Origin: Pelecanus crispus
Lineage: Eukaryota > Chordata > Aves > Pelecaniformes > Pelecanidae
DNA: 64,000 bases
Direction: 5' to 3'
Assembly: GCF_030463565.1 (NCBI RefSeq)
Contig: NC_134643.1
Location: 127,330,309 to 127,394,308 of the forward strand
Positions 19,006 to 63,601 of this stretch are shown here, piece after piece. How positions within the stretch are numbered: the first letter of the stretch is position 1; each line of letters starts with the position of its first letter. The notes under the pieces are model-generated. The model worked only from the letters and a program-made list of their open reading frames with translations. It made no database searches and was not told the origin of the DNA. A program made the translations under genes and the position numbers.

Positions 19006-19009
19006 GCCT

Positions 19010-22600: not shown

Positions 22601-22619
22601 TGAAACATCCGGAGCTTGT

Positions 22620-25260: not shown

Positions 25261-25355
25261 CTACTTCTCATTTCTGCTGACAAAGGTGAGGAGGTCCATC
25301 GCTGTGACCACACCGAACACCATCTGCTTCATGAAGGAACTGCCATTTCCATTGA
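25261..25355 (-). CDS. Cysteine lyase coding exon 15: end of second CBS domain
   Basis: This 95-nt exon encodes [20 protein letters not shown] and [10 protein letters not shown], then TAG at 25261-25263. The Thr and Asp of VVTAxD, which in CBS contact S-adenosylmethionine, are kept. The acceptor is TGTGCTTACAG. Confidence 0.94.
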
Positions 25356-28300
25356 CTGTAAGCACAGAAAATTCCAGTTTAGCAGGAAAAAAAAAAAAGA
25401 AGGAAAAAAAAAACCCCACAGCTGTCCAGAGGCTGCTGTTCATTTATTAAGAGAAAATGTTGATGGGGACAGCAGCTGTCTCTGCTCTGCCTCAACACAA
25501 ATGACTGATGCAGCCTCGGTCAGGTTACTGGGATCACGTCAGGGAGGTTTTAGCTGCAAATAATGCACCCTTTACCAGAGCAGGAAACTTAATTTCCCAG
25601 TTGTTTTTACCCAACCTCTGCTCCAGTCCCGCTTCTATCACCACAAAACTTTTCAGGCCAAACTAATGAGACTCTTTAAGGGCAGCAGTGAGACATTTTC
25701 TGCTCTGTTCTCATAAGGTCCTATGCCACCATTAATAAAACAGCATTGCACCAATTGCTTTAACTATCTGATAAATGTTTTCTTAAATAAAAATAAAACT
25801 AGCCACCAGAGTCCAAACACGAGATAAAATGCAAGCTCTGAAGGTCTGTGTGGGAAGAAAGTAATAAATAAGGGGTAACTGTGACAGCATTAAAACAGCA
25901 GCTCTGGAAAAGAAAACGGGTGTTGTTTAAAAACCAGAGCAAGAGGCACTGCACACAGCTGGCTGATATTTTTTGGTGTGTACCATTTAATTTGCAGATG
26001 CCATTTAATTTATATTGAAATGTGATACAAAATAGATTTTCGTTGTTTTATGACTACATAGCTGAGAAAGGAAATTCTGCCTAGTGTTATTTTTGGTGAG
26101 AGAATTGGAACTGTGCATCAAAGGCAGTTTCGACCGAGAGACTTTTGTTTACAGCGTTTCGTGGGAACATGGCTGGACTTGCAAGTCAGCTTTAGAGCTG
26201 ATGGGGCTTCGGGGCAGCAGGCCACAGAGATACAAGCAGAGGGGTTGGGGTGTTTGCACACGGTGGGTTTCGGAGGTTGCCGAGTTCAGCAGGCAGCCCT
26301 TTGCTGGCAGTCAATACAGCGCAATATTGCGTGTTGCTCACCACAGGAATGCTTTGCATGTTCAATGTGTAATCCCATCAAATCAGCAGAATTACACCCT
26401 TCAGCTCTAATTTAGAAGACCTAAACATGGGTCTCCTGACTGCTTTTTTTGTGTTGCTAACATTTTAAACAAAGCAGCTCCCCTGAGATAAGGCCACATT
26501 TGTGCTTCTAGAAGTTTTACGGTATAATTTTACTGGAAAGGTGTCTTAGGTGAGATTTGTAGAACAGCAGCTGCCACCATACCTGTTTTGGTCAAAGGAG
26601 CAACAAGGTGTGATCCCTGCTGCCATCACTGTGTCAGCAGCCCTCACGCTAACGTGGTCCTACTGCACGTGACTCTACTGAGCAGGTTTGCTTCACCGGT
26701 GAAGGGGTGGCTGTACAGTGGCTTGAGAATAAAGCAAAGCTGCTGGTGCGGCTGATGTATTGGACTAGTCTAATGGTGCTCCCGAACTGGGAGAGCAACC
26801 CTACACCCAGCCATGGTCCAGATAAGGCTCATGCACAGATGCCTCAGGCTGCACACATCAGTATGCGTTGTGCCTCCTGACTCCCAACTCATGCGCCCCT
26901 GCCGCCAGGACTTGCTCACAGGCCAACACATTTGTTTTCGGCTTTCTCAACTTACCCTGGACGTCCAGGGTAGGTGTCTGATAGCACCCAGTGCAAGAGG
27001 CCCCTTAGCGGATCAATTTACCCAGTCCCCTCGGGGCACACAGGCACAAGGGCGTCTCTTGGCTGCATCTCCAGGAGTGGCAAGTGGGAACAGTGGTGTT
27101 CAGAGAAGATGGCACAGCCTCTGGGGCATGCACAGCAGAAGGTCTTTAAGCAGTGGGATGCAGACTGTGTAGTTTGTTCCCTTGCACTTACATGCCTGAA
27201 TTCCACCTAAGCTTTATCTAATGTGCCCAAAATGCTCCTTTCGACCTTGCCTTTGGGCTACCAAGTCTATGGAGATCCCTAACTTCCCCCTTGTTTCCTC
27301 TGCTGCCCCCAACCAGGAAGGCAGTGATTTGAATTCAAGGTCAAGAGACTAAACGAGTACTAGAAGCCTGAGCCTACAGCTGTGTAGTGCAGCGAAGGCA
27401 CTGTGCCCCATGCTGCTGCCTACAGTCCACCTTGGCTGTCAGAGGGGACTAAATGAAATCCCATAATGAATACCTTCCCATCCCCAAAAGTGGGTTTCCG
27501 TGGGAAACCATGAGATGATGGGAGGGGATGGAGCTGATGGGTGCTTCAGCGTCACCCCTGCATGGGGGGACAGCACAGCTCCCATGTCCAGGATCTGCGA
27601 ACTGCTCCTGCAGGACACACACCCAGTAGTGTGCTGGTCCCAGGCTCATGTGGTTAAGGCTTTCCTGCCCTCCCTTCATCCCTGTGGTGTCAGGAAAGGA
27701 AATGGATGAGTAGTTGGCAGTTCCAGGGCTTTGCAGAGCCAGGGGGCAGAAATCCTTCCTGCAAAGGCTCAGGGGCTGCCCATGTGGGGCACCTGCGTTG
27801 ATATCTACCAAGCTCAGTTTGAGAATTTCCCTCTCCCCTCTCAAACAGTTGTGCAAAGCCTGTACAGTGCTTCTGCAGATACCTACACTGCATTTGCTCG
27901 TGTACAATGATAGCAAAATGGTCGTTCTCCAGGATGCAGGAAAGCTTCCCAAGGGTGTCCTCCAGGCCAACCTAAACAGGACAAAAGAGACGTTTTACGT
28001 TTCACTTCACATTTAAAGGCCAGTGGTGCGGACCCTCTGACTGTAGCCGTGAGTGGGCAGGGTGGCACCCACCTGGACCAGGATCAGGTGTGCCTCACCC
28101 ACCTGCACTGTTTTGGGAAGATGGGAGGGGATGCGGGTAACCTGCAAACCTGGCTTTGCTGTAGCTGAAATACAGTGCTGTCTCCCCCCAGCCCAAAGGG
28201 CCTCCATGGGCCAGCATGAGGTCATGGCTCCAGCTCCCCTAAAACACCATCCATTTACCTCACTCCATCTCTGGACCACTGATGGCCATCTGACCCAGAC

Positions 28301-31300
28301 ATCCCTTCCCTGCACACCCACAGGACCTGCCCTGTGTCACATCAGAGCCCGTGCCTGTTGCCCCAGCCCTGTTGAGCCCTGGCAATGGCTGGGCTCTGAT
28401 TTCAGAAGGTGCTGATCCCCCAGCTGGACGAAATCCTCTGATAACATAAGATTGGGGGTGGACATTCACATGCTTTGCTCCTGGCATGAAAGCTCCCGTG
28501 TCTGAACCCCACAGGCTCAGCAGCATTTTTGCAGGTGCCTGTCCTTACTCTCATCTCCATGTTGTCTCCATCGCCCTCCCCACCTCTCTCTACCTTCACC
28601 TCTCTGTCTTTTCATTGTCCTCCTCTCCCAGCTCCTCTCACACCTCAGGGTGGTGGTGCACCTCTCCCTGTCCCTGGACAGTGGGTGACACCAGCCACAG
28701 CCTTAGTGGTACCTTTGAGAACTGGTCGTAGATGACCTTCGTAACGGGGTCTGAGAACTGTGCGTTTCCAGCCAGCACCGAGGTGAGGGTGTTGCTGAGG
28801 GTCACCATTCCCAAAATAAGTCTGTAAGGGAACAGGGAGTTTTCCAAAGGGTCAGACCTGAGGTAGGGCACACGTTTTCTGTAGGGGCTGAACTGCTCCC
28901 CTTGAAGTCAGTGACTAAATTTCTGCTGCTGTCAGTGGGAGGCACCAGCTTTCTCCCCATCTGAGCAGGACAAGAAGATCCTTGTCCTCACCAAGCTGTT
29001 GGTTTAACAGTAGTTAAAGTCTGCTATTGCAGTCCAGGATTAGCAGCTAGGAGAAGGAAAACTTGAGAGCTCTCCAGCTGCGTTTTTGTGTGGGTTTCTC
29101 ACCCAGCCCTCACCCCTCCTCTGGCCTCCCCTTGGCAGTGCACTGATCCAGCCTCTGCTGAGTCTGGTGGGCACTGGATTTGGCTTTGACTTTAACTAGG
29201 TCATTTACAGTCAGTTTTCATGATGAATCTTCACAAGGAGGCAGATGATATTTTAAAAATATGCATCACAGAATCCAACACGAGAGCCCCATCACTGGAT
29301 CGGTAAATGGGACTTTAGCTTCATCATGGCTGCTTTTCCTATGTGAATGGCCATCTCTGTAATGAGTAAAAATAGTTACCCCGATTCAGCAACAACAGGA
29401 GCTTGGTCGTATCCCTTCTCCTGGAGGATCTCAATTGCCTTTTGACAGCTGACTTCTGGGAGGAGAATGAGAGGGGCTGAGAGATTCAGTTTCTGTACCT
29501 TGATGTTCCACCACCTGTTGAAAGACAAATGGCAGCACCAAGCTGTTACTCTCTGCTGTGCGGTGGTGGGCCTTGCTCAGGGAGGCAATGCCAGTGGAGA
29601 TGAGACCAATCATGTGGAGATAATCTGCCTGCCTGCAAAGCTCACCCCACTCCTATCCCCAAAGCAGTAATGCTACAAGTCCACCATGGCCAGGTCTTGT
29701 TGAAGCCAAGCTTTCCCTATGCCCGGTGTTCATACAACTCCAGAGGCAGGGCTGAGGCCAGCAGTTGGCAAGGTGCTGAGCTGCCCCGAATCCAAGGAAG
29801 CTACTGAGGGCTTCACTTCAAGCTCAGGAGTGGAGGCCTACCAGTTTTACTTCTTTGGTTTGTATCCTTGGTCCTCAAAATGCAGCATTTGCAGCTCCTC
29901 CAGGAGAGAGTCTGGCAGAGATGCTCATGTGGCTTACGAGGGACAAGCTATGCTTGTTTGTTGGGGACCACAGGCAACTCCCAATTCATCTCAGCCCTTT
30001 GTCCTTGCAGAAAAGACAGGACAATGCTAAAGGCTGGAAGGGCCAAGAGCAATTCTAACCAGGCATGAGAGGCCTTGGAAATGTACTAAGTTTTTAGGAA
30101 ATATTTTGCAATAACCTTTGGTTATAGTAACCCAAATGAACAGATGACATCAATAATACCTGCTGTCTTTAAAGTGAGATTCGGTGCTTTCTAAACAACC
30201 AGAATTTGCCCAGCCACATGTCAACTGACATCAGCAGTTTGTGATTCCCTGCTCTGAGGGGGCTCTTTCCCAATGGCGTGCAAGAGACAGCTTGTGCAAG
30301 AGACAGCTGAGTTGGTCATCTTTTCTGGCCCGCAGCTCTGGAAAGTGAAAATTTATTGTTCCCTGCCTGTAAAGACCTCCAGAGCTGTTTGAAAGGGTGC
30401 TTGCTACAGGAGGGACCCACCTGCCCGCCAGCCCGATGTTCCTTTGAACATCAGCTGCGGAGTAGAGAAAGGACGTTTGAGGGGAGTTAGATGTCCACCT
30501 TGGCCATTCTGCTCGGCAAGGTTTAGGTGGCTTGGACAACGACTGCCACATGGGAGGGGATTGGCAGCTTCAAGACAGAAATGGCTTCTTTATAGAGTTT
30601 GATTGGAGAACTAATATCTAACCACTCAAAAGAGAGGAGCTGACATTACAGCTTTCCCAGAGGGATCTGGACTTAATTGCATTTTTTCTAAATACTAAAA
30701 GATATTTCCTTTGAAGATAATAATTTCCAGACTCAGAAAGCTGATTCCCTTAGCACTGTTTATACCAGCGGAAGTTGTCTTACCAAGGCTTGTGCTCCTG
30801 GATGTCATTTAGGAAACCATGTTTTATCATCCACTTATCATTCAAAAATTTGGACCTAGAAATCACCAACAAAGAGTCAGTCTGTGAGCCTTCCAGAAGA
30901 AGTCGTGCTTTGTTTCATGCACTAGACCGCAGCACTGCCCCGGGGCTCCCATGATTTTTGCAGCTGGCTGCTCTTAGCCCCTTTTAAGGTCAACGGGAGC
31001 TGTGGGTGCTCAGTAACTCTTAGAAGCATGCCAGCTATTTGCCTTCCTAACTTTAGGCATGCAAGTTCAAAAACTGTAGCTTGACTGATTCCTGCTCCGT
31101 GCAGTAAGTCAGTGACAAGAGGAAATAAAACCCAAGTGTCCCAACACCCAGCCCCTGGTGCTTGCCACGGTAGTACGCTATTTCTCTCTGGTTTGGTTTT
31201 TTTTTTTCCTGTGAGTTGCTTGAGGGAGACTCCCAGCTCTGGGCTCACTCTGAGTGCCATGCTATCAGACTTATTGGGGTGGCTCTCCAGCAACTCGCAC

Positions 31301-34300
31301 CACCTGGGTTCAGCAGTGCTAACTAAGCTTGTGTCACTGAAGGGCCCCATGGCCCCAACCTGGGCCATGTGCAGAGAGGGTGGGGAGAAGGCTATGGGAG
31401 CTCCCACCCCGCTGCCAGAAAGCAGGCGAGGAAGTGAGAAACTCACATGTAGTTCCTGACAGAGTCGGGCAGGATGACGACGCAGCGCTGACCTTCCTTC
31501 AGGTCCTTGGCAGCCCGCACGGCGACGGACATGGCGCTGCCTGAGCTGCCACCTGGATGCGCACCGAGAAGAGAGAGACGAGCGTTGGGGCTGCCCAGGG
31601 TGTAGGGCCACAGTCCTGGTGTGCAGGGCACAGTGCTGCCCTGTCTAATGCTAGCAGGGGCACTGAGACCAAGCAGTAGCAGAGGTGGCACCTCATACAC
31701 ACCAGGGCAGCTCAAGACACTGGGAGTGGGAGGAAAATCGGCCCCACCCCTAGGTTTTAGGGTCAGGAAGAGGTAGGGACTGAAGGGATGTGTTCATATG
31801 GTGGCTCTTCACAATGGGCTTATGAGGCAACGTAGGAGTCACCTTATGAACTTCATGAACCTCTTCTTGTCATGACTCTGAGGGCAAGGCCAAGGGCGGA
31901 AAGGTTCAGTACAGGGCCATTCATACCACCGCTACCCACCCTTCCTTTGGGTAAGGAGAAGACCATGCCAAATCTAGAGCTTCTGGCTGACATATTTGAC
32001 TATCAAAGATTAGCTTTAAATGCATTGTAAAAACTGAAAAAAGCATAAACATTACATTCATGCTTGGAATACCAGGCCAACGTGATGGGAAGACTTAAGC
32101 ACTCCGTGTGTCTGTGTGCACGCATGTGGTTTGCTGCACGTAGGGAAAGCAGGTCCCTGCTTTACAGAGGCAATTCTTCCACCGGTAGTTCGAGTACTGA
32201 AGTCGAACACATTCCACTATCTGTGTGCCAATTACACACTGCATTCAAGGCAGCACGTATTTTACAGCAGGTTAATTAGCACTGGGTCACATTTTTCAAA
32301 CAAATGGGGAAAGGCCCTGAAAAATGCAGTTCAGGGAACATGAAGCTATTTGCAAATTACAGTTGAGTTCAGCAAGTGGTTTCTGTTGAAACATGGTGAC
32401 TCTGTGCCTGCTAGGTTAAATCAACATTTAAGCGTTTCATTACAAATGGCCTGGTCTTTTTCAAACCTCCCTGGATGTGAGCACTCAGGACTTTTATCAG
32501 CTGTAACCACAAGCCTACATATTGTCTGGTCCTGGACGCAAACCTATAGCTATCAGCTTGGTGGTAGCGAAGGCTGAAAAACACTGACGCTATGTAGAGG
32601 CTCTTAGGGTACAGGCAGGGTTTGTCTGAGGGCACCTGTTCATTTTGGAAAGCCGTTGGGATCACTTACAGCTTGTTGGCACAGGGAGAAACACTCAGTA
32701 AGAACATCTTACACTCCCTTTACTTTCAGACTTTCCTGGTCCAAACCTGGCACCTCTAGTGTGGCAACCGTTCAACGACAGAGAGTACAGCCTCGCAGAG
32801 TTGTTAGCAGAGCGACAGTTTTAGCCCACCTGTCCTGCCCCGAGTCCCATTAATCCTCTCTTCATCTCATGTAACACTACACTGCACAGAGTTCGGCCTG
32901 AAGATCCAGTTCCATGTGCAAAAGTGCTCCAGTAAGGGGAGAGTTATTGCTTCTATAATTATTGCGGCTGATGAGTCAGATCCCAGGCCACGGACTCACT
33001 GCCACACATCTGAAGTCTACAGTGACCTACACACCAGCTTAGGGTTCGGCCATTCAGCCCTGTTAATGTAGCAGACACAAAATGCAGAGAGCACCTACCC
33101 CAAAGCATTTTGGTCCCAAAAGGATGAGGTTCAAAAAGTTTGTTAAGAGAAGCAACTGTTGTCATTGGTGCTTACCGCACAATAATCCCTCCTCTCTAAT
33201 CAGCCTGCGAGACATGAGGAACGAGTCTCTGTCGTTGCATTTATACCACTGATCAACCACCTGAGGAGAAAGCAAGAAGGTTGGTTTCTGGAAGTGTTAT
33301 TTCAGGCTGTCCCGAGCCTGTGAGGCATGCCATGGTGCTGATGCCTACAACATCTGGCAGCTTTGAGCTGCTTTCCACACTTGTTGAAAACAAACGCATT
33401 TGTCAGGGTATCCTTGGTCCGGAGGATGTGTCCTTGCTTGTAGGCATCCACTCTAGCCTTTCCAGCCAGCACCCTTTCCTTGGAGAGTTAAGGATGTCTG
33501 AGAGGTCCAGAGTCAGGATGTAGTGTTCATGATGTCCCAGGCTAGGCTACATCAATGGTCAAGATTTTACCAGGCAAAATCAGATCCAAATACAAAAAGA
33601 GTTTTACGTTACTACAGCTCAAAACTCTAAAGCCGTGTGCAGACAGCAGAGACGTAGTTACCACAAGACCCGAAAACAGAAAGAATCTGAGGTCGGAGGC
33701 TGTGGGGGACCTTTCTAAGAACGAGGCTGGGGGAGCACAGGCAGCTTGAGTTAGGGCTTTAAAGCTCTGTGCCTGGTGGCAACTGATACACAAAGAAGAA
33801 ACTTGACAAGAAGCTGTATGAGGTTCATGATCTGTTGTTTTACATAGCCTGGATCTTGTCTTCCAACCCATAAATGGTGCAGGGTTTCTGCTGCGTGCAT
33901 GTGGTGCCTACAGCAGTGAAGGCTCAGGAAATGCTAGCGTGATGAAGAGCAGCCTCAGCACTGACCTCTTCTGTGTGATCATAGTACAAGAGGCACACTC
34001 TGAACATTGGTGAGGCTGAGCTGAGGCGGCCGGTACTGTGGCATATTCTTTGTTTGCCCCTGTGTTTGGCTTCTCCTTGTAGGTCAGTTATAATCAGATT
34101 TACTCAGAGAGATGCTTTAGTGCTGGGGTCCCAACCCCCACACAACAGCTTGTTCTGCACCGGGAAGGTACACAAGTAGCCTTAGGGCTGGGACACAGCT
34201 GCATGCCAGAGCAGGCTACCTCTGAACTTGGGAATAGGCTGGACACAAAGGCAAAATTCAGACAGAGGCCTCTCATCACACATTTACTTACTGATCTGTC

Positions 34301-37300
34301 AAGGACAGTAGGGATAAAGTCATGCCCAATGCCTTCCACTTCGATGGTTGTGGTGTTCGTCCTGTTCATCTCACTAGGCAGAGCGACGATGGAGCCGTCA
34401 GGATCTACACCAATGATCTTTGGGAGAAGGAAGTCTTGTTAAACCACAAAGGGAGTTCAGAAATAGTCAAACACACAATTCAAAGGAAAAATAGCAAACA
34501 CCCTTATTAGCAACATTTTCCTTCCCATGGTATTCATTAATATTCCTATCCACTGGCAGCATGGAGAGCTTCCAGGGTAAAAGGGTACTGTTTCCCACTG
34601 GCTTTTTACATAGATCCTGGGTAGTGTTTAGGTGCTGCAGAAGTGACTTGTAGCTTAAACTGTTATCACTCTCAAGGTGTTTGTCATCACCCCTTTGGCA
34701 CAGCCTGCTACTTCCAGAACTCAACCCTTAGGACAGTGTGAGTGCTCCTTAATCTGCTCCAGTGCAAAGCCAGCCAGCTAGCTCAAACCTGTGGAAACCC
34801 ATGGCTACAGACATCCTTTCTGGATCTAGCTGTGCTGGCTGACAGTGGCACCTCCCTGGTTGCTTATAGCTTTATGTCGGGGCTGAGGTTGCCTCCCTCA
34901 GCGCTCAGCTTAAGAAGGGATGGTGACATTGCTCCACACGCAGCTTTGAGCAGTCAGCAATGTTATCTCATGCCCAGGTCCCTCAGTGGCTGGGTCCACA
35001 CCATCTCAATTTGCCTCTGGTGGATCAGGGATCGCTCACATGCTGGCTACACCAGCAAGGCAGTAACCATCAAGCCCCCAGTCTGCCTTGAAGCTCAGGC
35101 TCTGCAGAATGAGCAGCTATGACTAGTGTCAACCATACAGCACACAGGCTTTTGCAATGGCACATGAGAAGCACTTGCACGGTCTTCCCCCCAGCCCCGT
35201 GGAGCTGCCAGAGCAGAAACTCTGTCAGCTGGGCCAGCCACTTCTGCAGAGGACATCTGACAGTGTCCTGCAAAGGGCAGGGCACCGGGCAGGGTGGGAT
35301 TAGTAATGGGGCTGTGGAGCCTTTGACTTCTAAGGCACTCGGATGGATGTAGGTCAAGCTGAGCGTAACACCAAATGGCTTCCAACAAAAGCCAAGCTCA
35401 CTGTGAAAAAACAAATAGGTGGAGACAACAACTGCTAGCTCAGGTGAGCCGTGCACAAGCAGGAAAACCCAGGGGGGCCATGACTCCCAGCGGGCAGCCC
35501 TGCCTCCCAGCTTACCTTACACTCTGGGCACTTCTCCTTCAGCTTCCTGGCGATGCCAGTGACGGTGCCTCCTGTGCCAGACCCAATCACCACCATGTGG
35601 ACCTTGCCTGCAGGTCAGGGAAGAGAGAGGCTTGCAGGGACTCGGCATGGCCTCCAGCACGTTCTCGCCTTTATTCAAGGCCCTGCGCAGATGCACAGCC
35701 CGCGTCCCTCAGCTGCTAGAACCCCATGTGTGGAAAGGATAGGCAGGGGTCATGCTGGCGGCCAAAGCGTGGTCCTGTGGAGAAGCTCAGATGAGCTTGC
35801 AGGAACCGAGCACAGCTGGTCCTGCCTCAGTGCAGGGGGCTGAAGGTGACCTCCAGATCTCCCAGTGGTCTCCATGATTTCTGCGTCTTTGGCATCTACT
35901 GGCTTAAGGGGGAGGGAGGATCTCAGCGTTTCCAGCCCTTTCAAACCGCACCACGTCAAAGCAAAGCACGCATGTCAATAGCAGCACAGTATCAATAACA
36001 GGCACAACCTTCCAGCTAGCATTAGCATCCACAGTGGAGAGATGGCAGAGGTCTGCCCTGGCACCCATGTCAGTCAGATGTAGCCCCACTGACATCAGTG
36101 AAATTACACTGATTTAGGACGGGTAGGAGCTGAGTCAGAGTCAGGCCTTCAGAGCCTTGTGCTGCAACTGCACTGGGTAAAGGGATTTATTTTATCATTG
36201 CTGGCAGCCAGTAGGAGCAAATCTAGATGTTGTAGTGGAGGGAAGGCTGGGAGTCTCTTGTTCCTGTTGCTACCCGACTGCTTTACTGTTATGATAACTG
36301 CTCTCCAGTTAAAACCTTGGAGTCTTTTCTACATTTAGCAGTGCTCCCAGTACTGGCAATAAATTTCTCTTCTATCTGCACAGACATGGACTGGGATAAT
36401 CCTTTATCCTCCCCCAGCCGTCACACCAAATGTCACTGCGAAGTTTTAGTCTATTTTAATTTGCAAATGAGTGTGCTGGATCAGCCTGCCACGGCCTGAT
36501 GGACTTGTATTCCCCAGTGAGGCTTCTTGGGCCAGGTTGTGCTCTCAGCTGACAGGCTGCAGAGATGTTGTAGCCACCGAGAGATGGGCTTGTCCTCCTA
36601 GGGTACAGCCTGAATTTCTTAAGCCTCTGGTCTCCTCCCTCTGGCTTTTGAAATGGGAGGCCATAGCAGGGAAGCCCTGCAGGCTTAGATAGATCTGGAG
36701 TGGATTATGTGAAGTTGCTACACCCTGCATGTCAGTATTATCAAAGGTGCTTTCACCTACAGGGCCCTTTTGGCCATTTCTATATATTTAGATCAATAAA
36801 TGATGTAAAATAAGCCTCCCAGAGAGGGCTATAGCCCTACGCACATCCTCAGCACGTGGAAGCGACAGCGCAGACGGTACCTTCACACTGGTCCAGGATC
36901 TCCTCAGCTGTGGTGTCGTAATGAGCCAGGGGGTTGCTTGGATTTCGGTACTGTTTATTTCAACGGAGAACAGCATGAATTACTGTGTGAAGCATAGGTC
37001 AAATACCAAACTAACAATAGCTCCTGACAAGCTTTACGCGGAGTATGGAACTGCCCCCTCCACTCCCTGGCGGGGGGTGCCCTGCCACCCAGCCTGGCCA
37101 GGTCACAGGTATTCCTCCTGGTTGTCACTTTGGGACAGGTTTCTAAGGACACTTAGGATTTGTTCACACTGGAAGATTAAACGTGCCCACCAACACTCCC
37201 TCTCTGGTTCTTGGTGCCTATTTGGTGTGGGGATGGTGCAGCTGTCCCATATGCTGCATTGCCAGGTTTTGTGGATCTGGTGGTTTTGTTAAAGCCCCAG

Positions 37301-40300
37301 CTGCTGGACACAGGAGAGGTCCTCAGTATTTTAGCTATTGCTTAGAAAGGAACATTTTTAGCCTTTTCTGTTACTTTGAAAAAGTTGAAAATACAGCCCC
37401 ACAATACTCACCAAAAGCTCAGAAAACAAACAAAATCCCTCCTCAAATGTCTTATTAGAAAACTTCTTTCAAGTATCACATATATAATTTTAGGAGCTGC
37501 TTTGTCATTTAGGGGTATTTGTGGCTGGCAATGCAGCAAGGTGGCTGGGAAATGTGGGCCAGAGTAGTTGTCCTACCTGTACAGAGGGGTTTTACCTCAG
37601 GGGGTACACAGGTACAGCACTGAAATGTGTGCAGCCCCGTGTTCACATCCGTAGACCAGGCTGCTTCTGAAAAGCGTATTCAGACATTGAGCTCCCTTTT
37701 TGTTAACAGAAAGGAAATTTGTGGCTTTCCTGACTTTTCTGCACTATAGGAGCTCCCTACCCACTATAGGGATCCCCTCCTGCAGCGGGGTCAGACCAGA
37801 GGGAGAAGTGCCCTCCTCCACAAGACCCAGTGCTGCAGGAACCACTGGCGTGAATCAATGATGTTTGCCCTTCACAGCATGAGGCTTATTTTTGAGGCAG
37901 AACAGAGGCTGCTAGCCAGGCATAAAAAGTTATTGTTTCAGGTCAGAGTTCTGAAGCAAGAATCTTCCAAGTGTGCAAGAAAACCTAGCCTTACTCACAT
38001 CAGGCTTTGGCATGAGTATTACAGGCTTGGAAGTGTCCCTTACTTTGTTTCTGCCACCCCGTGCTTTACAGAGGAGAGATTAAGTTTCAAATGCCATAAA
38101 ACGCTGATGAAATCTGCCTCCATCGCCAGTTTGAGTGAAGCCCCCGAACACAGGCAGACTTGGAGCACACACTAGAAACTGTGTTTGGAAAGAGAGTCAG
38201 TGGAGAAAGTGTTTACCTGGTCCAGGATGTGAGAGTTTGGGATTTCACTTTTCAGCTTCCAGGCGACACGAATGTTAGACTCCGGGGCATCAAAGCGGGT
38301 GCACGGGGTCCTCACAATTTCAACACCCAGCGCCTTCAGAATATCGACCTTTGGGAGGGAAGAGAGTAGATGTAACGCAACTGATCCCACGTCGCGATGG
38401 TAATCTGAACCCGCAGGCTCATGGAAGCGGCAGATGCCAGAGGATCTTTGCATGCGGGAGACATTTGGCATTTGGAGATACAATGTCCGATTCTCGGTTA
38501 TACTATCTCCGAGATCCTCCTGGCACCCAGGGCCTCCTGCCTGAAGTTGGCACACGGGTTCAAGCCTGGCCTCGTGCCCTGTCCTACTCAGAGGGCAGGC
38601 TGGGGACACGGCAGAGGTAGCTAATGCTGTGCTGCTCCTTGGTGCCTGGAGAAGGGGGCAGAGGGAACCGGGGCAGGGAGCAGCATCTCCTACCTGCTGT
38701 GGTCTGAGCCCCTGCATGCAAGGAGGAGGTCTTAAAGCTGTCTTTGCCCCAAGTCCCTTCTCTCCCCTCACCAAGCATGGGGAAGGAGCAACCACAAATC
38801 AGCCCTAGGGTATTAAACCACTGGCAGATGTGGCTGTCGGGGGAGAGGAGGTCAAAAGAGAAGGCTGGGTGAATGTTGGGGTGCCTGGAGATGAAGCCCA
38901 TGGCAGCTGGAGGTGGCATCTGATCCAGACTGAGCTTAAGTGAGATTTAGGTTGAAATGAGGGTGGTGCTTTGGAGAAGGGCTCAGTTTTGAGCCAAGTC
39001 AGGGTCCAGGTCTGGCTTCACTGCATGAGTTCAGCTGGGCAGTTTGTGAGACTTTTGGCTCCCCAAGGCAGAGATTTCTGCCACCGCTGGGACGGTTGAC
39101 TTCCACCATCTCAAGAAAGCGGCTGAGACAACCATAAGTGTCTCCAGGTGAAAGAAAACCGTAGAGACACAGAGAGACCAAGTGACATGTCAGATGTCAG
39201 AGGGGAAGTTAGCAGGACCGGCAGCTGAGGCCCAGCGCCCTGCCTCCCGCTCCTCCGCTCCATCCAGCCCTTGCCCTCGCAGACAGCAGATATTGCTCCA
39301 TTTCTCTGCAGCCACACACCGTGTTGGGCTGACATGAGCCCAGCTGCACCGCTGATGCTAGATAATCAGCCAAGCCATCACAGTGTGCTTTTTTTTTCAT
39401 TGAGAGGAAATCTTCTGAATAACTACAACGCTATGTCAGTGTGTGTGGCGAGGCTTGTTACCTTTTAAAGGAGAGGGCATTCCGTCTCTAGAAAGGGAGA
39501 GGCAGACAGAGACAGGGAAAGAGATGTTCCCCGACTGCGGGGTAATACCATACAGAACTCTGACCTTTTCCATGCTCATTTTCTCCGGCAAGACAACGAT
39601 GCAGCGGTAACCTTTCACTGCAGCTACCAGTGCCAGCCCGATTCCTAGGTGGTGGGGAGGAAAGGGAATTGGTTGACAACAGCATTTGGCAAGGTCGACA
39701 GACATGCATTGCTTCCTACGTTCCTCTCTCTCCTGCCAGTGAACATAACCTAGAAACATTCACCGATGAGCGACAGGTGAGGGCATCCTCCACGAGCCTC
39801 TTGGGACGTGCCAGGGAGCGCAGGAGGATGTGCTAATGGGCGAGGGGAGCTGCAGTGTCCCTCTTGCTGGCAGTATTAGTGTGGCACAGAGCGAATGGCA
39901 AGGCTGGGGAGTGCTTTCTTCCCCTCACCAAGGTTCAGGCCTCTTCCTTTGTGTTCCAAAACACAGGAGAGGGGTGATTTTGCTTCAGGAGTGCCTTTCC
40001 CTCCCCCTCAAACGCTCTCAGCTGGGGACACACACACACAAAGCTGCACACGTCACCCCGTGGCGCGCAGGCGAAGGGGACCTCTGCTCCAGTTTCACTG
40101 GGGGTGATGGATGGAGCCAGCTGCTGCCCAGCTAGAGGAGGAAGGTGAGGCCAGAGCAGCGTGTCCCTGCGAGAGGCTGCAGGGAACATGGTGCCGCCCC
40201 GGCTGGGCAGGGAGCCAGCATGAGCCACCTGGGCAACAGTGCCACGGGCACACCGGTCCCCTTGTCCCCGTGTCTGGGGGGTGTCCGGGGAAAGGGGGGG

Positions 40301-43300
40301 CTGGCTCTGGGGAGCCTGGAGCAAGAGGGCTGGTAAGGGGCAAAATTCCTAGAGACGAGCCCTGTTCCGCATGGCTAGTGAGGGGAAGGTTGCAGCAGTG
40401 CAGCAGAGGAGAGCGCAGTGAGGGACACGGCCTCGACTCTGTCCAGAGCACCTCGACAGCCCCCGCTGTGCCTTTTTGCAGGAAAGCACACTGTGCACAC
40501 ATACGTCCCTGACACGGCAGGGACACTGGTGCAGGCAGCAGCAAAGGGACATGGAAACTTGCACTGATGGTCCTGTGCAGGCTGCACAATAGTGGGGAAG
40601 GCTCCTCTCTTGTCCCCCACCTCATGTCATACCCCATCATAATCTAGTGCCTGAGCAGGATGACAGTGACAAGGAAAAAAAAAAAAAATATTTATCTTCT
40701 ATCCCATCAGGAAAACCCTCTCTGGGATCCTCTGAATATTCAAGAGTTTCCCAGCTTGAAAACACCTGGGGTTGCCCTGGCTCCTCCAGCTTCCAAGGCT
40801 GTTTGCCTTGCCATGAGGCAACCTGCCATGCATGCCTGCACAGGAGTGGGACCCTCGCAGGCCCTCGGAAATTTCAGCAACAAGGCACCTCAGCACTCCG
40901 GGCTTCCCGCGGCTGCTGGGAGGGGAGCTGAGGGGAGGACAGAGCCCGAGCTGCGGGGCCGCAAGCTGACCTTGTAACTGCAAATGCAAGAGCCCCTCAA
41001 ATCCCTGCCCCTCCCGCAGCCCCTCAGGGATGCCACCCTGCCCGGTACCCTAGCGGAGGGAGCATCCCTGCCCTTCCCACCTGTGTTTCCTGAAGTGGGT
41101 TCAATCAGCGTGTCTCCTGGTTTTATGATCCCGGCTCTCTCTGCATCTTCCACCATCCTCAGGCTGATGCGGTCCTTCACACTGCCCCCCGCGTTGAAAT
41201 ACTCACATTTTGCCACTGGAAATGAAAGGGGAGGCTCCATCAGGGACAAGCTGCAGCTGGGAGCACCAGCTCCTTGCTCCCCCAGCCCTCACTGCAGTCA
41301 TTTGAGGACACCCATTCCTCCCCTGTGGGACAGTCCTTTGCTCAGGAGAGTGCATCCTCCATCTGCTTACAGGGTGCCACAGCTTGTCATGGGATTACCC
41401 ATCAGCATACCTGCCCATAGTCCATCTTTCCACCACATTTCGTCTACCTTCAGCACCCTGAAGGCAGCGGGCAGGCCCGGTAAGTGCAGGATGGGTTTAA
41501 AATCAACTGGACATACAGTGATTGCTAGGTGGAAGATCCCACACGGGTACGATACACCTTGCTGCCCTGCCTTGAGGTCTCTTTGCTGAGCAAGGCACTG
41601 TCAGGGTTAACAGCCAGGTCTCACGATCTTTCCTGGGGCATGGCAATTATTAACAGGTGTCTAAAAAGGTGCCCTTCTGTAGGGATGATGTGTAGTCCCG
41701 AATGGGGTGCCATAAAGAAAAACAAACAATAGAAAGGATACTGTCAAGTGCCAGCCAAAATTATGCTTTCTTCGCTGAACTACCAAAAAAAACCCAACTA
41801 ACAAAGACTTTCCAAGGTGTGCTCAAACTGCAAGGCACACCTTATTCCTAATCAGGCCTTCCACACTGCTAGCGCTCAGGGCAGGACTCTTCCCACCAAG
41901 GTGTCGATGAACGTCTGCACCTGAACTGATGGTACTGAGCTCTGTTTTATGGACAACAGGGCAAAATGGGTACTTTGAGGGTGTCATTCACTTCATCCTA
42001 GCAGAGACAGCTACTTCAGGCTGACAAATCAGCCAGATACTTGAGCAGCCAAAGCAACGGGGGAAAAAATCTTGTGCTTATCATTACATTTGCAATGCAA
42101 AGTGCCAAAACTTCAGCTACTCTGAGATCCCTGGAGGCACAGAGATTACAAGGTAATCGTGTCCAACCATAACTGCTTCTTTGACGCGGGAGCGCCGCAA
42201 GCTTTGGTATATTTGTTTGGTAGGAGGCTCTGTGCTGACCTGCAGCTCAGAGAGGCCCACGCAGCTGCTCTGCCTGTCCTGCTCTCCTTCCCCTGCTGCG
42301 CCAGGGGAGGGAGACACCATCCCAGCAAACAGGGTCTCCCCAGCTTCGCCGCTGCTGTTTGCACCAAATCCTCACGCTCCCGTAAGGCACTTGTCCCAGC
42401 AAGACATCCTCCAAGGGACAGACTCCTTCAGAGGGGGACCAGACATTGCAGACCTGTCCTCCTGTCTCTGCCACCTCTGCTCCACGGTCCCCTACCATCC
42501 CCTGAGGTCTCATTCCTGGAATCGAGGGGTGGTGCCACATGGAGGTTGCAGGGTGAGGGGCCCGAGGGTCCCAGATCCTGAGAGGGGATCTGGTCGAAGA
42601 GCACAGCACTCTCCGTGTGGCCATGTGCCCGGTGGATGCTGGCTACCAGGTGGATTCCGGGCTGTCACATAGGACTGCAAGGTCCCGCTGTGCCCTTTTA
42701 TTGATTGTCAGCACTCATCAAATCTCTCCTTCCTACCCAGCTACGTGACACTCATGAATCTTACTGCCTGAATCATACTGTCCTTCTGCCCAGCTTGGCT
42801 GAAATTCATTAAATAGGGTTAAAAGGTATAGGAAAGGAGACTGAAAAGTCCATATACACAGAGACAGCCTAATCATATCATCCTTATTTATGTAGGGGAC
42901 TAGACCTGAGATACCCTTACCTGAACCCTTACCTGAGATACCACCAGTGCTGTGCTAACATGCCCTCAGAGGGAGGACTTGGTTCCTGCTAGAAAACCTG
43001 GCCCCACAGCCAGCGCTTTGGCCTGGCTTTTAGCACCAGGGTCTGGCACACGTGTTGCTGATAAACCCAGCTGCCTGCAGCCCCCCGCTGCTCTGCCAGG
43101 GCTGTGTTTTGGGAAGGTCCCCAAGGGAAGCTGTCGCTGCCCCCGGTGCAGAGTCCCCGCTGTGTGGGAGCTCTGCCTGGCAGGCAGGGGCTACGCTGGC
43201 ATGTGTCCCCCACAGCCCGAACTGCCCCCTCTGCCTGGGCAGGCTGTGGGAATGGTCCCACTGTGCACTGCACCCCATTCCAGCCACCACGTTTTGGGAA

Positions 43301-46300
43301 GGCTCGGCCAGTCTCTCCTGTGCACGCCACGTGGTACCCTGGGTGCCGCAGCATCCCTGCCCATTGCCATGGTGCCATCCACTCATTCCCAAATTCAGCC
43401 CAGCTCTTCTCTGAGCTTATGCTGCAGTTATCTGGGAAGAGATGCCTCCACTACCATTAGCTCCCTGCTCATTGCAGCCTGAAACCATCCTGTTTGGTCC
43501 GACAAATGACTGTAGTGTAACCTAATAAGTGGGAGTACCCAACACGTGCCACATCTGGCCCTCCCCACCTGTGCTTGCTCTCCACAGAGCCTCTTCTGAA
43601 GCCCCCCTCCAACACCGCCCCTCACCCTCACCTCGTGGCACAGAAAAACCTGGTGGAAAGGGGACACTCACAGAGCTCACACTTGAGCCCATAGGACTTC
43701 CCAATCTTGTTGACTTGGACCATTGGGGTGCAGCCAATTTTCTTCAGGATGTTGGGCAAGATCTTTGTTTCTTCTGGCCTGAAATAATGCAGAAGAAAAA
43801 AAGAATTATGTCAAATCAAAGCAACTGTTACGCGACATGAACCAAGATAAAAGCAACTTTAGCAAGGCTACCGGGACACCCCAAATTCAAGAGAAAAGGT
43901 CCCCATTGACAATTAATGGCAGCAGGAGCTAGTTAGAAGAATAGATTTAGACTGGATATAAGAAAGAAATTTTTTACAATGAGGGTGGTCAAGCACTGGA
44001 ATGGGTTGCCCAGAGAGGTAGTGGAGGCCCCATCCCTGGCAACATTCAGGGTCAGGTTGGACGGGGCTCTGAGCAACCTGATCTGGTTAAAGCTGTCCCT
44101 GCTCACTGCAGGGGGGTTGGGCTAGATGACCTCTAAAGGTCCCTTCCAACCCAAAGCTTTCTATGATTCTGTCATTCAGGGCTGTTCTGAAATGTCTTGT
44201 TCTGGAAGGCCCTAGGCCAGACCTATAACTAAGTGAAGTGCGAAGAGCTGATGAGCCTTGGGATTTTACATAGTAGGTGAGAAAGCCAGAAGGCCATGTA
44301 CAATACAAGGCTCCTCCTCTTTCCTCCGTCCTACCCAGCACCACCTCTGCTTTTCACATTTTCAGCTCTCTCTAGGCCAACTGTTGCTTGCCTGGCCGGG
44401 ACTCCCAGACTTGCAAGGATGGCTCCAAGCCATCAGAAAGGCCCAAGCCACAGGGGACTGTGGAGGTTTTTTTGCAAATAATTAAACTGAGCTCTTGATC
44501 AGTGCAATCCAGCCTCCTGGTTCTGCTAGTCTGTGTCAGACTCTGGCAGTAGCCAAGAACCATGTCACAGCAATTGCAACCAGAATGAAAAAGACTTGTT
44601 TGCCCAACACACAACCGAACACATCTTGCCACGCAGCCAGGGAAGTAGTGTCCTCGAACTTTTTAAAAGACGGAGGGAAAAGATTGACGAGGAGGGCTGT
44701 GTTTATTGGGACCACAAACGTATTGCTGCTGGTTGATAGCCAGCACGTCCCTCTCTGAGTGGGGTGACAAAGCCCCACTCCCTTGCTGTTCAGCTCTCCT
44801 TTGCACAGCTCTCGCCTACTATCATCCTTTGAACCTTGAACCCAAGTTATCCTTGTCTGCTATCGTGGCCAGGCAGATGGCTGTCTGCTGACAGAAAGTC
44901 CATATGGTGCAGGGATGACATGCTGATTTACTTAAAGACACGCACGTCCCTCCAGGTTTTGCAAGCGCAATATAAACACTTCTTGCTTTGCAAGAATACA
45001 GGGGTAGTGGTTTAATGCAGGTCTTTACTACCGAAAGGAGCCAGCCTCCTTATATCTCAAGCCCAGAAATGATGAAGTATTACACGTGTGCTGTTATCTC
45101 TCCCTCCATGGAAAGTGTTACCGCACACATTACAACCTCTATTGAGTGCTGGTAAATGTGAGGCAATAACTCAATAAATGAGCTTCCCCCACAGCTGCAG
45201 CTATTTTCCATCTGCTGTAAAAGCCACCAAAATGCTCAAGAATTTGAGTCGGGCTGAGCACAAGGAGACTCCAGCTCCTTCAGGCGGTGTTTAACTAAAG
45301 CCTGGCTTTCAAGAGAGTGACCTGTGTATTACATTACACATCTAGATTGCAGGAAGTCAGCTCGAGAGAAGAAAGCAAGGCCATTTGTTTACCTTCAGCC
45401 AGTAATTGTGGTAAGCAAGATGCTACCGTGCCCTTTGAACCCCAGCAAGGCGTGATGTGGCACGGCAAGGTGCTGTGCGGCTCCGGGGTCTGCAGTGGTG
45501 GAGCCTGGCAAGGGGACGGGGAAGGGGAAGGCAACCCTGCGCTGCCTTGCATGCTGGGGCGAGCTTTGCCGGGAGGGCGAAGGTGGGAACCAGAAACTGG
45601 ACTGCTCTTTTGCATTGCCACCAGCTACCATCCCCAAAAAGAATAGCCTTTCTCTCACCCTGGGGCAAATTTTCGACAGTTCCTATCAAATTCCTTTCCT
45701 AATCGCTACCATATTTCACTACAAAAATAAGACGAGCACGGTCAGCTTCCTTCCCCAGCTGAGCGAGCTCTGTGCATGGACCTGAAGGCGGCAGGACTAT
45801 GGATACAAGAATCTGTGGCAAATGCCTTTGGTGGTCCTAAAAGATGTGGTGGGGTCACTCTGGTCCTGCTGCTGCTGGTATCAGTTCAGGATCGCAGTGG
45901 ACAAGGATGGTTTTCCTCCAAGATTTCTGCTTTTGTTCATGGCATGTTATTGCGTAAGATGTCCAGGAGGAAAAACAGCCCTGGCAAACCAAGTGATTCT
46001 TGCTGAGGTTATAGTGGGTCAGAATTGGCTCAAGGGGTATCAGAACTAGTCTAGCTCTGTACCTTTGGAAAAAATTAAATAATATTCTTAATTAAAATAA
46101 CATCTTGTCTTCTCCCATTCTCTGCTTCTACTCCCAAAACTCAATCAGATTTCACATGGGAATCTCAGAAAGTCCAGAGATTTTTGCTACATCAGCTGCC
46201 ATCTGTGGTTTACCCAGAGCAGAGAAAACAAACAAACCCCCTCCATGCGATTCTGCAAAGTAAAAGAAACAGTGTGGTGTGTCCCAGTGTATTTTCTTCA

Positions 46301-47941
46301 CTGCTGTACAGTGGGATATGTTTCAGTTCCTGCCCCAGCGATGCTGCATGGGCCCCCTCGGCCAGACCCCATCCCCAGGGAGGTGCCCAATGCCGAGGGC
46401 TGAGGCTGCCCCGGTGCCCCCCATGGTGCCCCCCTCCTGGCTGGGGGGTGGCATGGGCCCTGGCAGCGGCCCCGCCTTGCTGCCCTGGGGCACCCTGATG
46501 CTAATTTGCTAAAAACCAAGAATGTTATCCTGTTCAGCATAATTGAGAAAAAAAAAAAACCCAAAACATCATTTTGACTGAAAAGACCTCATCCTGTCCT
46601 CGGGTGCTAGCTGCAGGGGTTGCACTGGGTGAATGCCTGCATGCATGTTCGCTGGATCGGCTCTGAGGCTGTGGAGCACACTCCTCCTTCACAGGCCAGA
46701 CCTGGAGGCTGTTCTGGGCTGCACACATGCCGGTGGCTGCGCTCCGGCTGTGTCCTGCCTGGCACGCTGTACGGAGCTCCCCCAGCCAGCTCCCCGCTGG
46801 CAGGCGTCCACGCAGAGCAGTGCCGCACCTCCCATGGGCCCCAGTTCCTCACATGCTGGAGCTGAATTCATGTTTTACATCTTTGGCACAGCAGGGATGT
46901 GTCCGCAGCTCCCCTGACATTTATAGGACAGCCTTATCTTTAATAGCTTGTCTGGGTCTGGTTTGCTGAGCCATTAAAGCACCTCTCATCTAGTCCAGTC
47001 TGGACACTTTGGCAGGCTTATCTCACCCTGGGAGGAAGCCTGCTGCTGTGAGGAAAAGAGCCACTCAGAGCAATCACTTTGCCTTGCACTGCACTCTTGG
47101 GTCACTAACGCAGGGTGGGAAATCTCTGCGTGGGCCGTTTTCTGGTTATTTGAAAGTCCAGGCCCTGGTAACCTGGTTTTGTGAGGGTCTCTCAGCCATC
47201 AGTGAAGACATTGCTAGTATTTTAAAATCTTCTTACACACAGCCTCGGACTGTTTGAGTGAACAAGGGCAGCCAAACTGCAGCCCTCGACTGATGACCGC
47301 ATGGCTGTTACTGACTGTGCTGTACAACAGGATGGGTGCAACAGCTTTGGGGTGTATGTGTGCATTACACTACAGCCAGGAAAGGCATTGCTGCATCTCC
47401 TTGAGTGCCTAGCAGTTGGGAGTGCCTTCACTTCTGCTGTGCAACACCAGACCTCACAGAGTCCACTTTGCAGAAGTATACAAGTCCCTGGTTGAAATCT
47501 ATCTCTGAAATATCTTAACCTTAATTCTTCTGAAATGAGATGCCCTGAACTAGCAGATGCTTTCATATGTGTGCTGGAAAACACAGAGCTGAGCCACATC
47601 TTTCTGCAAGATTAAAGGGAGTGAGAAAGTTCTTCCTGGAGAGGAGATACTAGGTGGGTTTTGCCTTCTTAAACCATCATCAATGTAACATATGGTCAAA
47701 CTACTGACTTCTGGTCATGACCATCCTGGTGTAGCAATAGAACTTCATCTTCAGAAAAAGATATTGAGCTTCCCACACACTGAAATAACCAGCAAGAAAG
47801 AATTACTTACAAGGGCATACAGGAGTGTGGAGACTTGGTAGCAGGCATTGTAGCTGTCCATGTGCATTTACTGGGCAAGCTGGGAAGAATCCACGTGCTG
47901 TCGGCTTTGCTTTCCTGACTTCCCACGCAACTGCCATTCAT
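25261..47941 (-). CDS. Cysteine lyase-type paralogue of cystathionine beta-synthase (CBS-like), 15 coding exons
   Basis: A complete haem- and PLP-dependent enzyme of the CBS family, read by splicing 15 exons with consistent phases into 519 residues plus TAG. Domains: haem-binding segment with SKCTW (Cys26) and SPH (His39); PLP fold II core about 44-360 with PLP lysine Lys93 in GGSVKDR, TSGNTG at 120-125, GTGGT phosphate loop at 229-233, CPEC at 245-248 and CGGSSGS at 319-325; then two C-terminal CBS (Bateman) domains. Compared with remembered human CBS it has changed active-site surroundings (Cys60 for Asp86, Ile-Gly-Ser 226-228 for Ala-Ser-Val 253-255, His281 for Tyr308). Cysteine lyase (EC 4.4.1.10) turns cysteine plus sulfite into cysteate plus H2S in bird yolk sac, and is known to come from a CBS duplication. 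That this copy is cysteine lyase is inference from synteny and divergence. A second CBS or a pseudogene are alternatives, but the intact frame argues against decay. Confidence 0.88.
27887..27971 (-). CDS. Cysteine lyase coding exon 14: second CBS domain
   Basis: This 85-nt exon encodes [20 protein letters not shown] and IIVHEQMQ. It ends in phase 1 at a GTAGGT donor, and the split codon gives Phe with the last exon. Confidence 0.9.
28713..28821 (-). CDS. Cysteine lyase coding exon 13: first CBS domain, end
   Basis: This 109-nt exon encodes [20 protein letters not shown], then [16 protein letters not shown]. The acceptor is CCCTTACAG. Confidence 0.93.
29380..29514 (-). CDS. Cysteine lyase coding exon 12: first CBS domain
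   Basis: This 135-nt exon encodes [20 protein letters not shown], then [20 protein letters not shown] and AESG. The EKGxDQAPVV core of the first CBS domain is kept. Confidence 0.93.
30784..30855 (-). CDS. Cysteine lyase coding exon 11: linker to the CBS domains
   Basis: This 72-nt exon encodes [20 protein letters not shown] and HKPW. It is two codons shorter than in human CBS, in the linker between the catalytic core and the regulatory domains. Confidence 0.92.
31447..31552 (-). CDS. Cysteine lyase coding exon 10
   Basis: This 106-nt exon encodes [20 protein letters not shown] and [15 protein letters not shown]. It includes the conserved serine of the GGS motif (Ser322, human Ser349). Confidence 0.94.
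33176..33260 (-). CDS. Cysteine lyase coding exon 9
   Basis: This 85-nt exon encodes [20 protein letters not shown] and IREEGLLCG. It has the CBS length but is one of the more diverged exons. Confidence 0.92.
34292..34417 (-). CDS. Cysteine lyase coding exon 8
   Basis: This 126-nt exon encodes [20 protein letters not shown], then [20 protein letters not shown] and RS. His281 replaces the tyrosine of the CBS motif EGIGYDFIP. The donor is GTAAGT. Confidence 0.94.
35516..35607 (-). CDS. Cysteine lyase coding exon 7: PLP phosphate loop
   Basis: This 92-nt exon encodes [20 protein letters not shown] and [10 protein letters not shown]. The GTGGT loop and the CxxC are kept. The three residues before the loop (IGS) differ from the ASV of human CBS. 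Confidence 0.94.
36881..36950 (-). CDS. Cysteine lyase coding exon 6
   Basis: This 70-nt exon encodes [20 protein letters not shown] and QCE. The active-site tyrosine that begins it (Tyr223 in human CBS) is kept. Confidence 0.94.
38217..38348 (-). CDS. Cysteine lyase coding exon 5
   Basis: This 132-nt exon encodes [20 protein letters not shown] and continues to NSHILDQ. It is one codon shorter than in human CBS, just after the RTP motif, with the frame kept. The donor is GTAAAC. Confidence 0.93.
39565..39644 (-). CDS. Cysteine lyase coding exon 4
   Basis: This 80-nt exon encodes [20 protein letters not shown] and KMSMEK. The donor is GTCAGA, a weaker but valid GT site. Confidence 0.93.
41081..41215 (-). 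CDS. Cysteine lyase coding exon 3: PLP lysine
   Basis: This 135-nt exon encodes [20 protein letters not shown], with the Schiff-base Lys93, and ends in EPTSGNTG, the substrate-carboxylate loop. The acceptor is TTTCCAG and the donor is GTGGGA. Confidence 0.95.
43672..43778 (-). CDS. Cysteine lyase coding exon 2
   Basis: This 107-nt exon, the same length as its CBS counterpart, encodes [19 protein letters not shown] and [16 protein letters not shown]. It has Cys60 where CBS has an aspartate (IGDTPM). The acceptor is CATTATTTCAG and the donor is GTGAGT. Confidence 0.93.
43940..44175 (+). mobile_element. CR1 non-LTR retrotransposon, 3' fragment
   Basis: The end of a CR1 element: GGGCTAGATGACCTCTAAAG, then GGTCCCTTCCAACCC and the terminal TTCTATGATTCTGT. 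It is truncated at the 5' end, as is usual for CR1. It lies in the intron before cysteine lyase exon 2, antisense to the gene and about 160 bases from that exon's acceptor. Confidence 0.9.
44176..47810 (-). other. Cysteine lyase intron between coding exons 1 and 2 (main part)
   Basis: Intron sequence without recognisable exons. Open frames on both strands have no known motifs. Confidence 0.6.
47811..47941 (-). CDS. Cysteine lyase coding exon 1: haem-binding segment
   Basis: This exon encodes 43 residues from [12 protein letters not shown], through [14 protein letters not shown] to KSPHSCMP, and ends in phase 2 at a GTAAGTAATT donor. The order W-I-x-P, S-K-C-T-W, S-P-H matches the CBS haem exon (haem ligands Cys52 and His65 in human CBS). 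The acceptor is CCACAACACAG, so the exon reaches 47965. The 24 bases before the ATG stay in frame and would read ELTKTCPL. Confidence 0.85.
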
Positions 47942-47965
47942 GAGCGGGCACGTCTTGGTCAGCTC

Positions 47966-53095: not shown

Positions 53096-53110
53096 AAGAT
53101 AAGCAATTTG

Positions 53111-57392: not shown

Positions 57393-57545
57393 GAGCCAGT
57401 GCAGCAAATTGTACCCAGTAATTTTCCCCCAGAGCCCGTGCAGTGAATTGTACCCAGTAATTTTCCCCCAGAGCCCGTGCAGCGAATTGTACCCAGTAAT
57501 TTTCCCCCATAGCCCGTGCAGTGAATTGTACCCAGTAATTTTCCC
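57393..57545. repeat. 39-bp minisatellite, about four copies
   Basis: Four consecutive units begin at 57393, 57432, 57471 and 57510, each with gtacccagtaattttcccc and a gagcccgtgcag-like start. They differ by only a few bases. The period is a multiple of three, so several frames stay open across it on both strands. Confidence 0.95.
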
Positions 57546-62100: not shown

Positions 62101-63491
62101 TATTTTTCTACTGCAGTGGAAAGAGAGACAAGCTAAGAAAAGTGTCACTCTTGCTGGTCAAAAGCTTCATTCTTGGCAAAAGGCCAGTCAGAAGATGTTT
62201 AGAGCAGTCTTTCTGAAGATGAAGAACAGCTACTTTTCTCCTGTAACCACAGGGCGATTCCACTCATCGTTACCACTAACAGCAGTCAGTAGCCTGAGCA
62301 CAGCCGAATATGGATGGGGCTGCTAGTGTTAAACTGTGCCATGGCTACGCGAGTCAAATATTACTGAAGAATCCAGAGTTACAGAAGTGGTGAAAAGTTG
62401 TAGCTGCATACACCTACTGCACATTACTCTTGTGTACTCTTGACAGTACCAGTCCACATCACGTTTGCCAGTTACTTCCAAGCTTGGCTACAGTAAATTA
62501 GATTAGTAGTAGAGTTTTTCTCCCGGAATAAGGCGCTACAGTGTAGGAGCACTTGAACAGGACTTGAAAGAGTTTACAGCTTTTGACAGATTACCTTTGG
62601 CTTTTCTAAAACAGGCATAAAAAGAAGCACTTCAAGATAAATAAGAGGGTGGGGAGGTAAGGGGAAGGTACTAGATGAAACAGCGTGATTTTCAAAAACC
62701 TTCAGGCAAGAAGCTAGATCTTACCTTTTAATCTTTTCACTTGTGCTTACTTATCAGGGTACAAGTGGAAAAAAAGAAAGGTCTGTCTTCACAGTGAAAG
62801 CTGGCGCACCGTGTGGAACAAAGTCACTAGTTTATGTTTGTCACTTCACTGTAAGGCTTCCACTGAAGTCAGTTTTTCCTCAGAGCAGCTGGTTGAAACA
62901 AGCTTCAATTCCAGCCCTCAGAATTTCCTCCTGTTTTACACCAATGTCATCAAAAGAGAACACTCCCCCTGCCTTCCTTCTCTCCACACCCCAGTCCCAT
63001 TTTTGTCTCCACACAGGTATTACCTAACTGAACAACCTTGTACCAAAAAAAAAAAAAATTCCAGAACTTTCCAGAGCTCTCTTGGGCCTCCGCTTCAGTA
63101 ACTCTTTATTTCAACATATTTTATGAATCTGAAACAATGTTTTGGAAAGCCAGACTTTAGACATACAAGTAAGGAACATACCTTAACATACCATTACCTA
63201 CCATTAATTTAGGAAATATTTTTACTTATATATATAGGTAAAAAAATAAATTGTCTTGATAAGAAATACTGTGTAACCTGATTAAGAAATAAGTCCCCAG
63301 AAACTGTGCAATACAGCAAAATGCACTGGCTGTATAGCTGACACCAGGATAGCTAATTGCTTATTTTCAGAATTTAAAAACCAAAACCAAACCCACCCTA
63401 AGGACAGACCGTTCTACCTAAGAAATAAACCTGATTCTTTGTTGGAGATTGCAAAATGTTGTTGGAAGAGGCTCCACGTTGCTACTTGACT
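59150..63491 (-). other. CBS: 3' UTR of CBS
   Basis: AT-richer sequence downstream of the CBS stop with no exon or repeat. Minus-strand AATAAA signals lie at 63105-63110, about 61386, about 59577 and 59173-59178. The last reads CAATAAAAGCTGTTTGATTG and looks like a strong terminal site. The UTR is therefore between about 0.4 and 4.3 kb, probably with alternative ends. A T run occurs at 62008-62024. Confidence 0.5.
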
Positions 63492-63601
63492 TTAGTTGGA
63501 CTTTCTTTCCCGTTCTCGTGCAGTCACAAAGTTAAGCAGGTCAATGGCTGTAACGATGCCAAACACCATTTGCCGCTTACTGGAGGAACCATCAGAGTTA
63601 T
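63492..63601 (-). CDS. CBS: Cystathionine beta-synthase, last coding exon
   Basis: CBS condenses homocysteine and serine to cystathionine in the cytosol (transsulfuration) and also makes H2S. Only the final exon is in the window: acceptor TTTCTGTGTAG, then [35 protein letters not shown] and TAA at 63492-63494. It completes the second CBS domain, which binds S-adenosylmethionine in mammals. The Thr and Asp of VTAID are present. It is closer to human CBS ([20 protein letters not shown]) than is the neighbouring paralogue, so I call it the canonical gene. The incoming phase (one base in the previous exon) is the same as in the paralogue, as expected for a tandem duplicate. The other exons and the promoter lie to the right of the window. 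Confidence 0.93.

Follow-up and report, generated by a model that had tools for sequence, protein, structure and literature searches.

The closest described system is the cysteine lyase of the chick embryo, which Malatesta et al. 2020 reportedly characterised as an enzyme of CBS origin that carries both heme and PLP and acts on cysteine plus sulfite; the H2S that it gives off is said to be reused by CBS. That such an enzyme is already known, as an initial annotation of this locus had stated, is borne out by an excerpt of one source, which reports cysteine lyase in chick embryos and not in mammals (PMC11260490). Excerpts of two further sources list CYLY separately from CBS among chicken genes (PMC10000371) and describe the chick area vasculosa as very rich in cysteine lyase activity (PMC3628655). 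Here we describe a CBS-like gene of Pelecanus crispus that, judged from its sequence and setting, is very probably the bird cysteine lyase (EC 4.4.1.10, chicken symbol CYLY), an old tandem duplicate of CBS.

Layout of the locus and structure of the CBS-like gene

The analysed stretch of 64,000 nucleotides, hereafter the window, corresponds to C1:127330309-127394308 and has the gene order PKNOX1 > < CBS-like copy < CBS. The 3′ coding exons of PKNOX1 (1026..5191, plus strand) encode the homeobox and the C-terminus and adjoin the CBS pair, as had been proposed. The CBS-like gene, which occupies 25261..47941 on the minus strand and is best read as cysteine lyase (CYLY), faces PKNOX1 tail to tail. 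The initial annotation had further described two minus-strand CBS genes placed head to tail. This arrangement stands, although of the upstream gene, the canonical CBS, the window includes no more than the last coding exon (63492..63601, minus strand), and the other 14 exons lie past the window end. In the extended window, whose flanking sequence is identical to the window where the two overlap, these 14 exons fall within 83898..65260, and the canonical CBS gene is intact, encoding 551 residues on the minus strand from 83898 to 63492 (extended window numbering). U2AF1, a neighbour of the locus in human, has no match within the extended 103 kb.

Human CBS served as tblastn query, its letters 34-547 being identical to the PDB chain. 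It yields co-linear minus-strand matches that run from 47.9 to 25.3 kb and follow nearly the whole of CBS one exon after another, with one extra match upstream at 63599..63501 (minus strand). The best PDB match is a CBS chain (816 bits), the aligned letters being those of human CBS. A CBS match this long and this well ordered could not plausibly arise by chance.

The downstream copy had been called complete, and a splice-exact reconstruction agrees with that description in coordinates, exon count and length: 15 coding exons with consistent phases encode 519 residues. The coding sequence (47941..25261) comprises 1560 nt including the stop, contains no internal stop and shows GT..AG boundaries at 14/14 introns. 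All exons lie on the minus strand, and residues are given here in human numbering. Exon 1 (47811..47941) keeps the heme-ligand positions C52 and H65, and exon 15 (25261..25355, including the stop) keeps T535 and D538 of the AdoMet site. Exon 2 (43672..43778) is followed by exon 3 (41081..41215) with the PLP lysine K119 and the TSGNTG loop, by exon 4 (39565..39644), and by exon 5 (38217..38348), in which Q222 is kept and the 192-202 entrance loop lacks one residue relative to CBS. Exon 6 (36881..36950) precedes exon 7 (35516..35607), where the GTGGT phosphate loop is kept, and exon 8 (34292..34417) carries the substitutions Y301I and Y308H. Downstream of exon 9 (33176..33260), S349 is kept in exon 10 (31447..31552); exon 11 (30784..30855) comes next, the Pfam CBS-domain match starts in exon 12 (29380..29514), and exons 13 (28713..28821) and 14 (27887..27971) lead to the terminal exon.

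A CpG-island promoter was considered for the copy and rejected, as the sequence upstream of the copy contains no strong island. Between the two genes, weak CpG stretches just pass the thresholds of GC >0.5 and observed/expected >0.6; the longest run (57801-59000, observed/expected up to 0.74) is located ~10 kb upstream of the first coding exon of the copy. A strong CpG island with an observed/expected ratio of up to 0.92 is present upstream of the canonical CBS (90701-92800, extended window numbering), and the copy and the canonical gene may have different promoter types. Four 39-base copies (94% matches) make up a minisatellite at 57390-57545, between the two genes. GC content is ~0.37 over the 3′ part of PKNOX1, climbs to 0.46 between 14 and 16 kb and reaches 0.54-0.60 from 16 to 24 kb, and the tested long open frames of the GC-rich segment between PKNOX1 and the CBS-like gene (14001-24000) are without Pfam match. 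In total, 0/14 long open frames scanned in the window, ten outside the span of the CBS-like gene and four overlapping one of its exons, matched a Pfam family, and Rfam gave 0 matches in the window at gathering scores.

Divergence, constraint and age of the duplicate

The copy and the neighbouring CBS share the same phase at 15/15 exon starts and have equal lengths in 11 of the 15 coding exons. Their proteins are identical at 371/515 aligned residues (72.0%), in keeping with the earlier description of the copy as clearly diverged, and identity to human CBS amounts to 68.1% for the copy and 78.3% for the neighbouring CBS. Like vertebrate CBS, the copy contains the Pfam domains, the PLP lysine, the heme-ligand positions, the CXXC motif and the CBS-domain module, and it resembles the neighbouring CBS in particular in its exon phases; unlike vertebrate CBS, it carries Y308H and Y301I, a shortened and changed 192-202 loop, and shorter N- and C-termini. 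The NCBIfam CBS equivalog model nevertheless scores the copy at 680 bits against a cut-off of 510, with both PLP core and CBS-domain module present. Since the CBS family model accepts the copy, automatic naming can hide a cysteine lyase gene.

Comparison of the two coding sequences by NG86 gives a dN of 0.193 and a dS of 1.59 (ratio ~0.12), and YN00 gives a dN of 0.191 and a dS of 1.93. Only 85/171 fourfold sites agree, synonymous sites being near saturation. A dN/dS of about 0.1 marks the copy as constrained. The duplicate is old and maintained by purifying selection, neither recent nor decaying. Gene conversion between the copies was considered for exon 10, where the proteins agree best (94% of residues). 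Its fourfold sites, however, agree at only 13/20, set beside the overall value, so that purifying selection suffices to explain the likeness of this exon.

The initial annotation had dated the duplication to early sauropsids, and a published account reportedly places the origin of cysteine lyase in a proto-reptile. Our tree analyses do not bear out the early sauropsid date, as in four of five the copy branches outside a group of bird and human CBS, but they do not reject it either. Quartet trees of human CBS, fly CBS, the neighbouring CBS and the copy were calculated under LG, JTT, WAG+F and LG+C20, and a core tree was built in which 12 of the 63 bacterial homologues served as outgroups. Under LG, JTT and WAG+F, bird and human CBS are joined in the best tree with the copy outside; the sauropsid-duplication topology trails it by 1.8 to 2.9 log units at full length, with AU p values of 0.33 to 0.41 (0.38 under LG). 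LG+C20 instead prefers a third topology, copy plus human, by 0.24 log units, and rejects none. In the core tree, the sauropsid topology is 5.7 log units worse (AU p 0.064). When gapless alignments were simulated under the sauropsid topology, the observed preference was reached in 0/100 full-length and 0/40 core replicates; a simulation test of this kind is known to reject too readily under a misspecified model. The copy is united with fly against bird and human at 12 sites, with bird against human and fly at 8, and with human at 1.

It is conceivable, if rather unlikely, that the duplication preceded the mammal/sauropsid split, with both copies kept in the reptile/bird line and the cysteate-making one lost in mammals. 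The best topology in three of the four quartet models and in the core tree, the simulations and the excess of 12 over 8 site patterns all lean this way. Against it, none of the AU values is significant, neither at full length nor for the core, LG+C20 favours another grouping, and fly and bacteria are distant outgroups, which tend to attract a rapidly evolving paralogue. The lean of both trees and site patterns can be accounted for by long-branch attraction and by a shift of selection on the copy. A duplication before the split would make the cysteine lyase lineage older than sauropsids and would be compatible with the function proposed for the copy, and the question deserves a tree with more species.

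Substrate-site changes and the predicted reaction

For human CBS, an excerpt of PMC9304066 states that Tyr308 activates the serine hydroxyl, and names 11 substrate and PLP contacts as well as an entrance loop at 192-202. The copy retains 10/11 of the contacts named there, the sole change being Y308 to His. Residue counts were based on 63 of 72 bacterial homologues, nine with short best matches having been left out. Position 308 is Tyr in human, fly and neighbouring CBS and in 63/63 of these homologues, and Y301, M169 and L287 are each invariant across the same set; the copy has His, Ile, Leu and Val at 308, 301, 169 and 287, respectively. Within the 192-202 loop, it shows the substitutions T193C, A195T and S199A, and residue 194 is deleted. 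This loop is also variable at several positions among bacteria and accordingly weighs less than the changes of Tyr308 and Tyr301. Altogether, the copy is broken at only 7 of the positions that ≥90% of bacteria share with human, fly and neighbouring CBS. Without the neighbouring CBS as a criterion, a somewhat wider count of conserved columns came to 117. The Tyr is likewise missing from an O-acetylserine-dependent enzyme of H. pylori, which works with a good leaving group and reads IEGIGVE, according to an excerpt of PMC7474069.

Y308H, Y301I and the shorter loop are consistent with an enzyme whose first substrate is cysteine instead of serine, and cysteine lyase is on these grounds the best reading of the copy. 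PLP bound to the lysine equivalent to K119 would accept cysteine, HS- would depart to leave a PLP-aminoacrylate, and sulfite would add to this intermediate, whereupon cysteate would be released. Loss of Tyr308 would be cheap with a thiol as leaving group, while CBS uses the residue for the poor hydroxyl leaving group of serine; His308 and the shortened 192-202 loop may adapt the pocket of the second substrate to a small anion. As a beta-replacement that uses cysteine should need no hydroxyl-activating Tyr, the copy most likely makes aminoacrylate from cysteine. Sulfite is the most likely second substrate, a proposal that is drawn from the known enzyme rather than from any residue comparison. 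The CBS origin, the heme and PLP cofactors and the chemistry reported for the chick-embryo enzyme (CYLY) agree with the residues retained in the copy. The initial annotation's view that the copy fits cysteine lyase is thus upheld as far as a tandem, intact and constrained paralogue with Y308H, Y301I and an altered 192-202 loop can carry it. A bacterial cysteate synthase (NCBIfam CysteaSynCapA, NF053679) has a related PLP-dependent core and, by name, the same product. Its model, which covers the core only, scores the copy at 303 bits, far under the cut-off of 600, and the neighbouring CBS at 314 bits; being no closer to the copy than to its neighbour, it lends no support.

The retained residues also suit a different function. 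In such a case, the copy would be a second, subfunctionalised CBS that is expressed differently and combines serine or cysteine with homocysteine, or mainly produces H2S from cysteine. The cofactor, heme and AdoMet positions, the ten retained contacts and the score above the CBS equivalog cut-off are all consistent with this, but loss of Tyr308 and Tyr301, invariant in 63/63 homologues, and of a loop residue would be unexpected in an enzyme that takes serine first, and we regard it as improbable. Within the cysteine lyase reading, the copy may still have some residual cystathionine synthesis, as most of its catalytic residues are those of CBS. A CBS duplicate in decay, its function being lost in this species, could account for the 72% identity and the few changes at otherwise invariant positions, but is hardly credible given an unbroken frame, splice sites that are all intact, a dN/dS of about 0.1 at near-saturated dS, and only 7 broken positions where the wider count gave 117 conserved columns.

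Relatives elsewhere and meaning of the gene

A search of the assembly (1.31 Gb, 310 contigs) for the PALP-fold family returned at least 11 matches, of which eight loci were examined; the three left out lie near others on C10 and C12. Two of the eight match human CBS, both on C1, and these are the two neighbours described above, so that no third CBS is known from the loci examined. A search of viral contigs likewise yielded no relative that would count as a further vertebrate CBS. The bacterial homologues (L027-L098), mostly Marinimicrobia with a few Oligoflexales and others, have CBS-like cores that match the bird protein along all 315 residues of the query with up to ~65% identity, a closer resemblance than might be expected.

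Decarboxylase exons in the genome display PLP motifs resembling CSAD, GADL1, GAD2, DDC and a GAD1-like gene, names assigned by motif resemblance. PLP motifs did not single out a dedicated cysteic acid decarboxylase among the decarboxylase loci, and a further matched locus on C7 (L024) contains none of the motifs sought. The same CSAD-like exon occurs on L020 (C32) and L022 (C230), reflecting a duplicate contig or a second copy. Apart from the other decarboxylase matches, L023 (C2:83346001-83356000) harbors a diverged GAD-like PLP-motif exon (NPHKLMGPLQCSAF), which from its letters may be either a pseudogene or an unusual decarboxylase.

Cysteine lyase would allow an embryo enclosed in its egg to build sulfonated amino acids from sulfite, with the sulfide reused by CBS, and the copy would presumably be put to such embryonic use in this bird as well. 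The kind of enzyme is already known from chick, and the gene characterised here would add a further example, preserved intact beside CBS. Y308H, Y301I and the one-residue loop deletion form a small candidate set of changes for the substrate switch from CBS to cysteine lyase.
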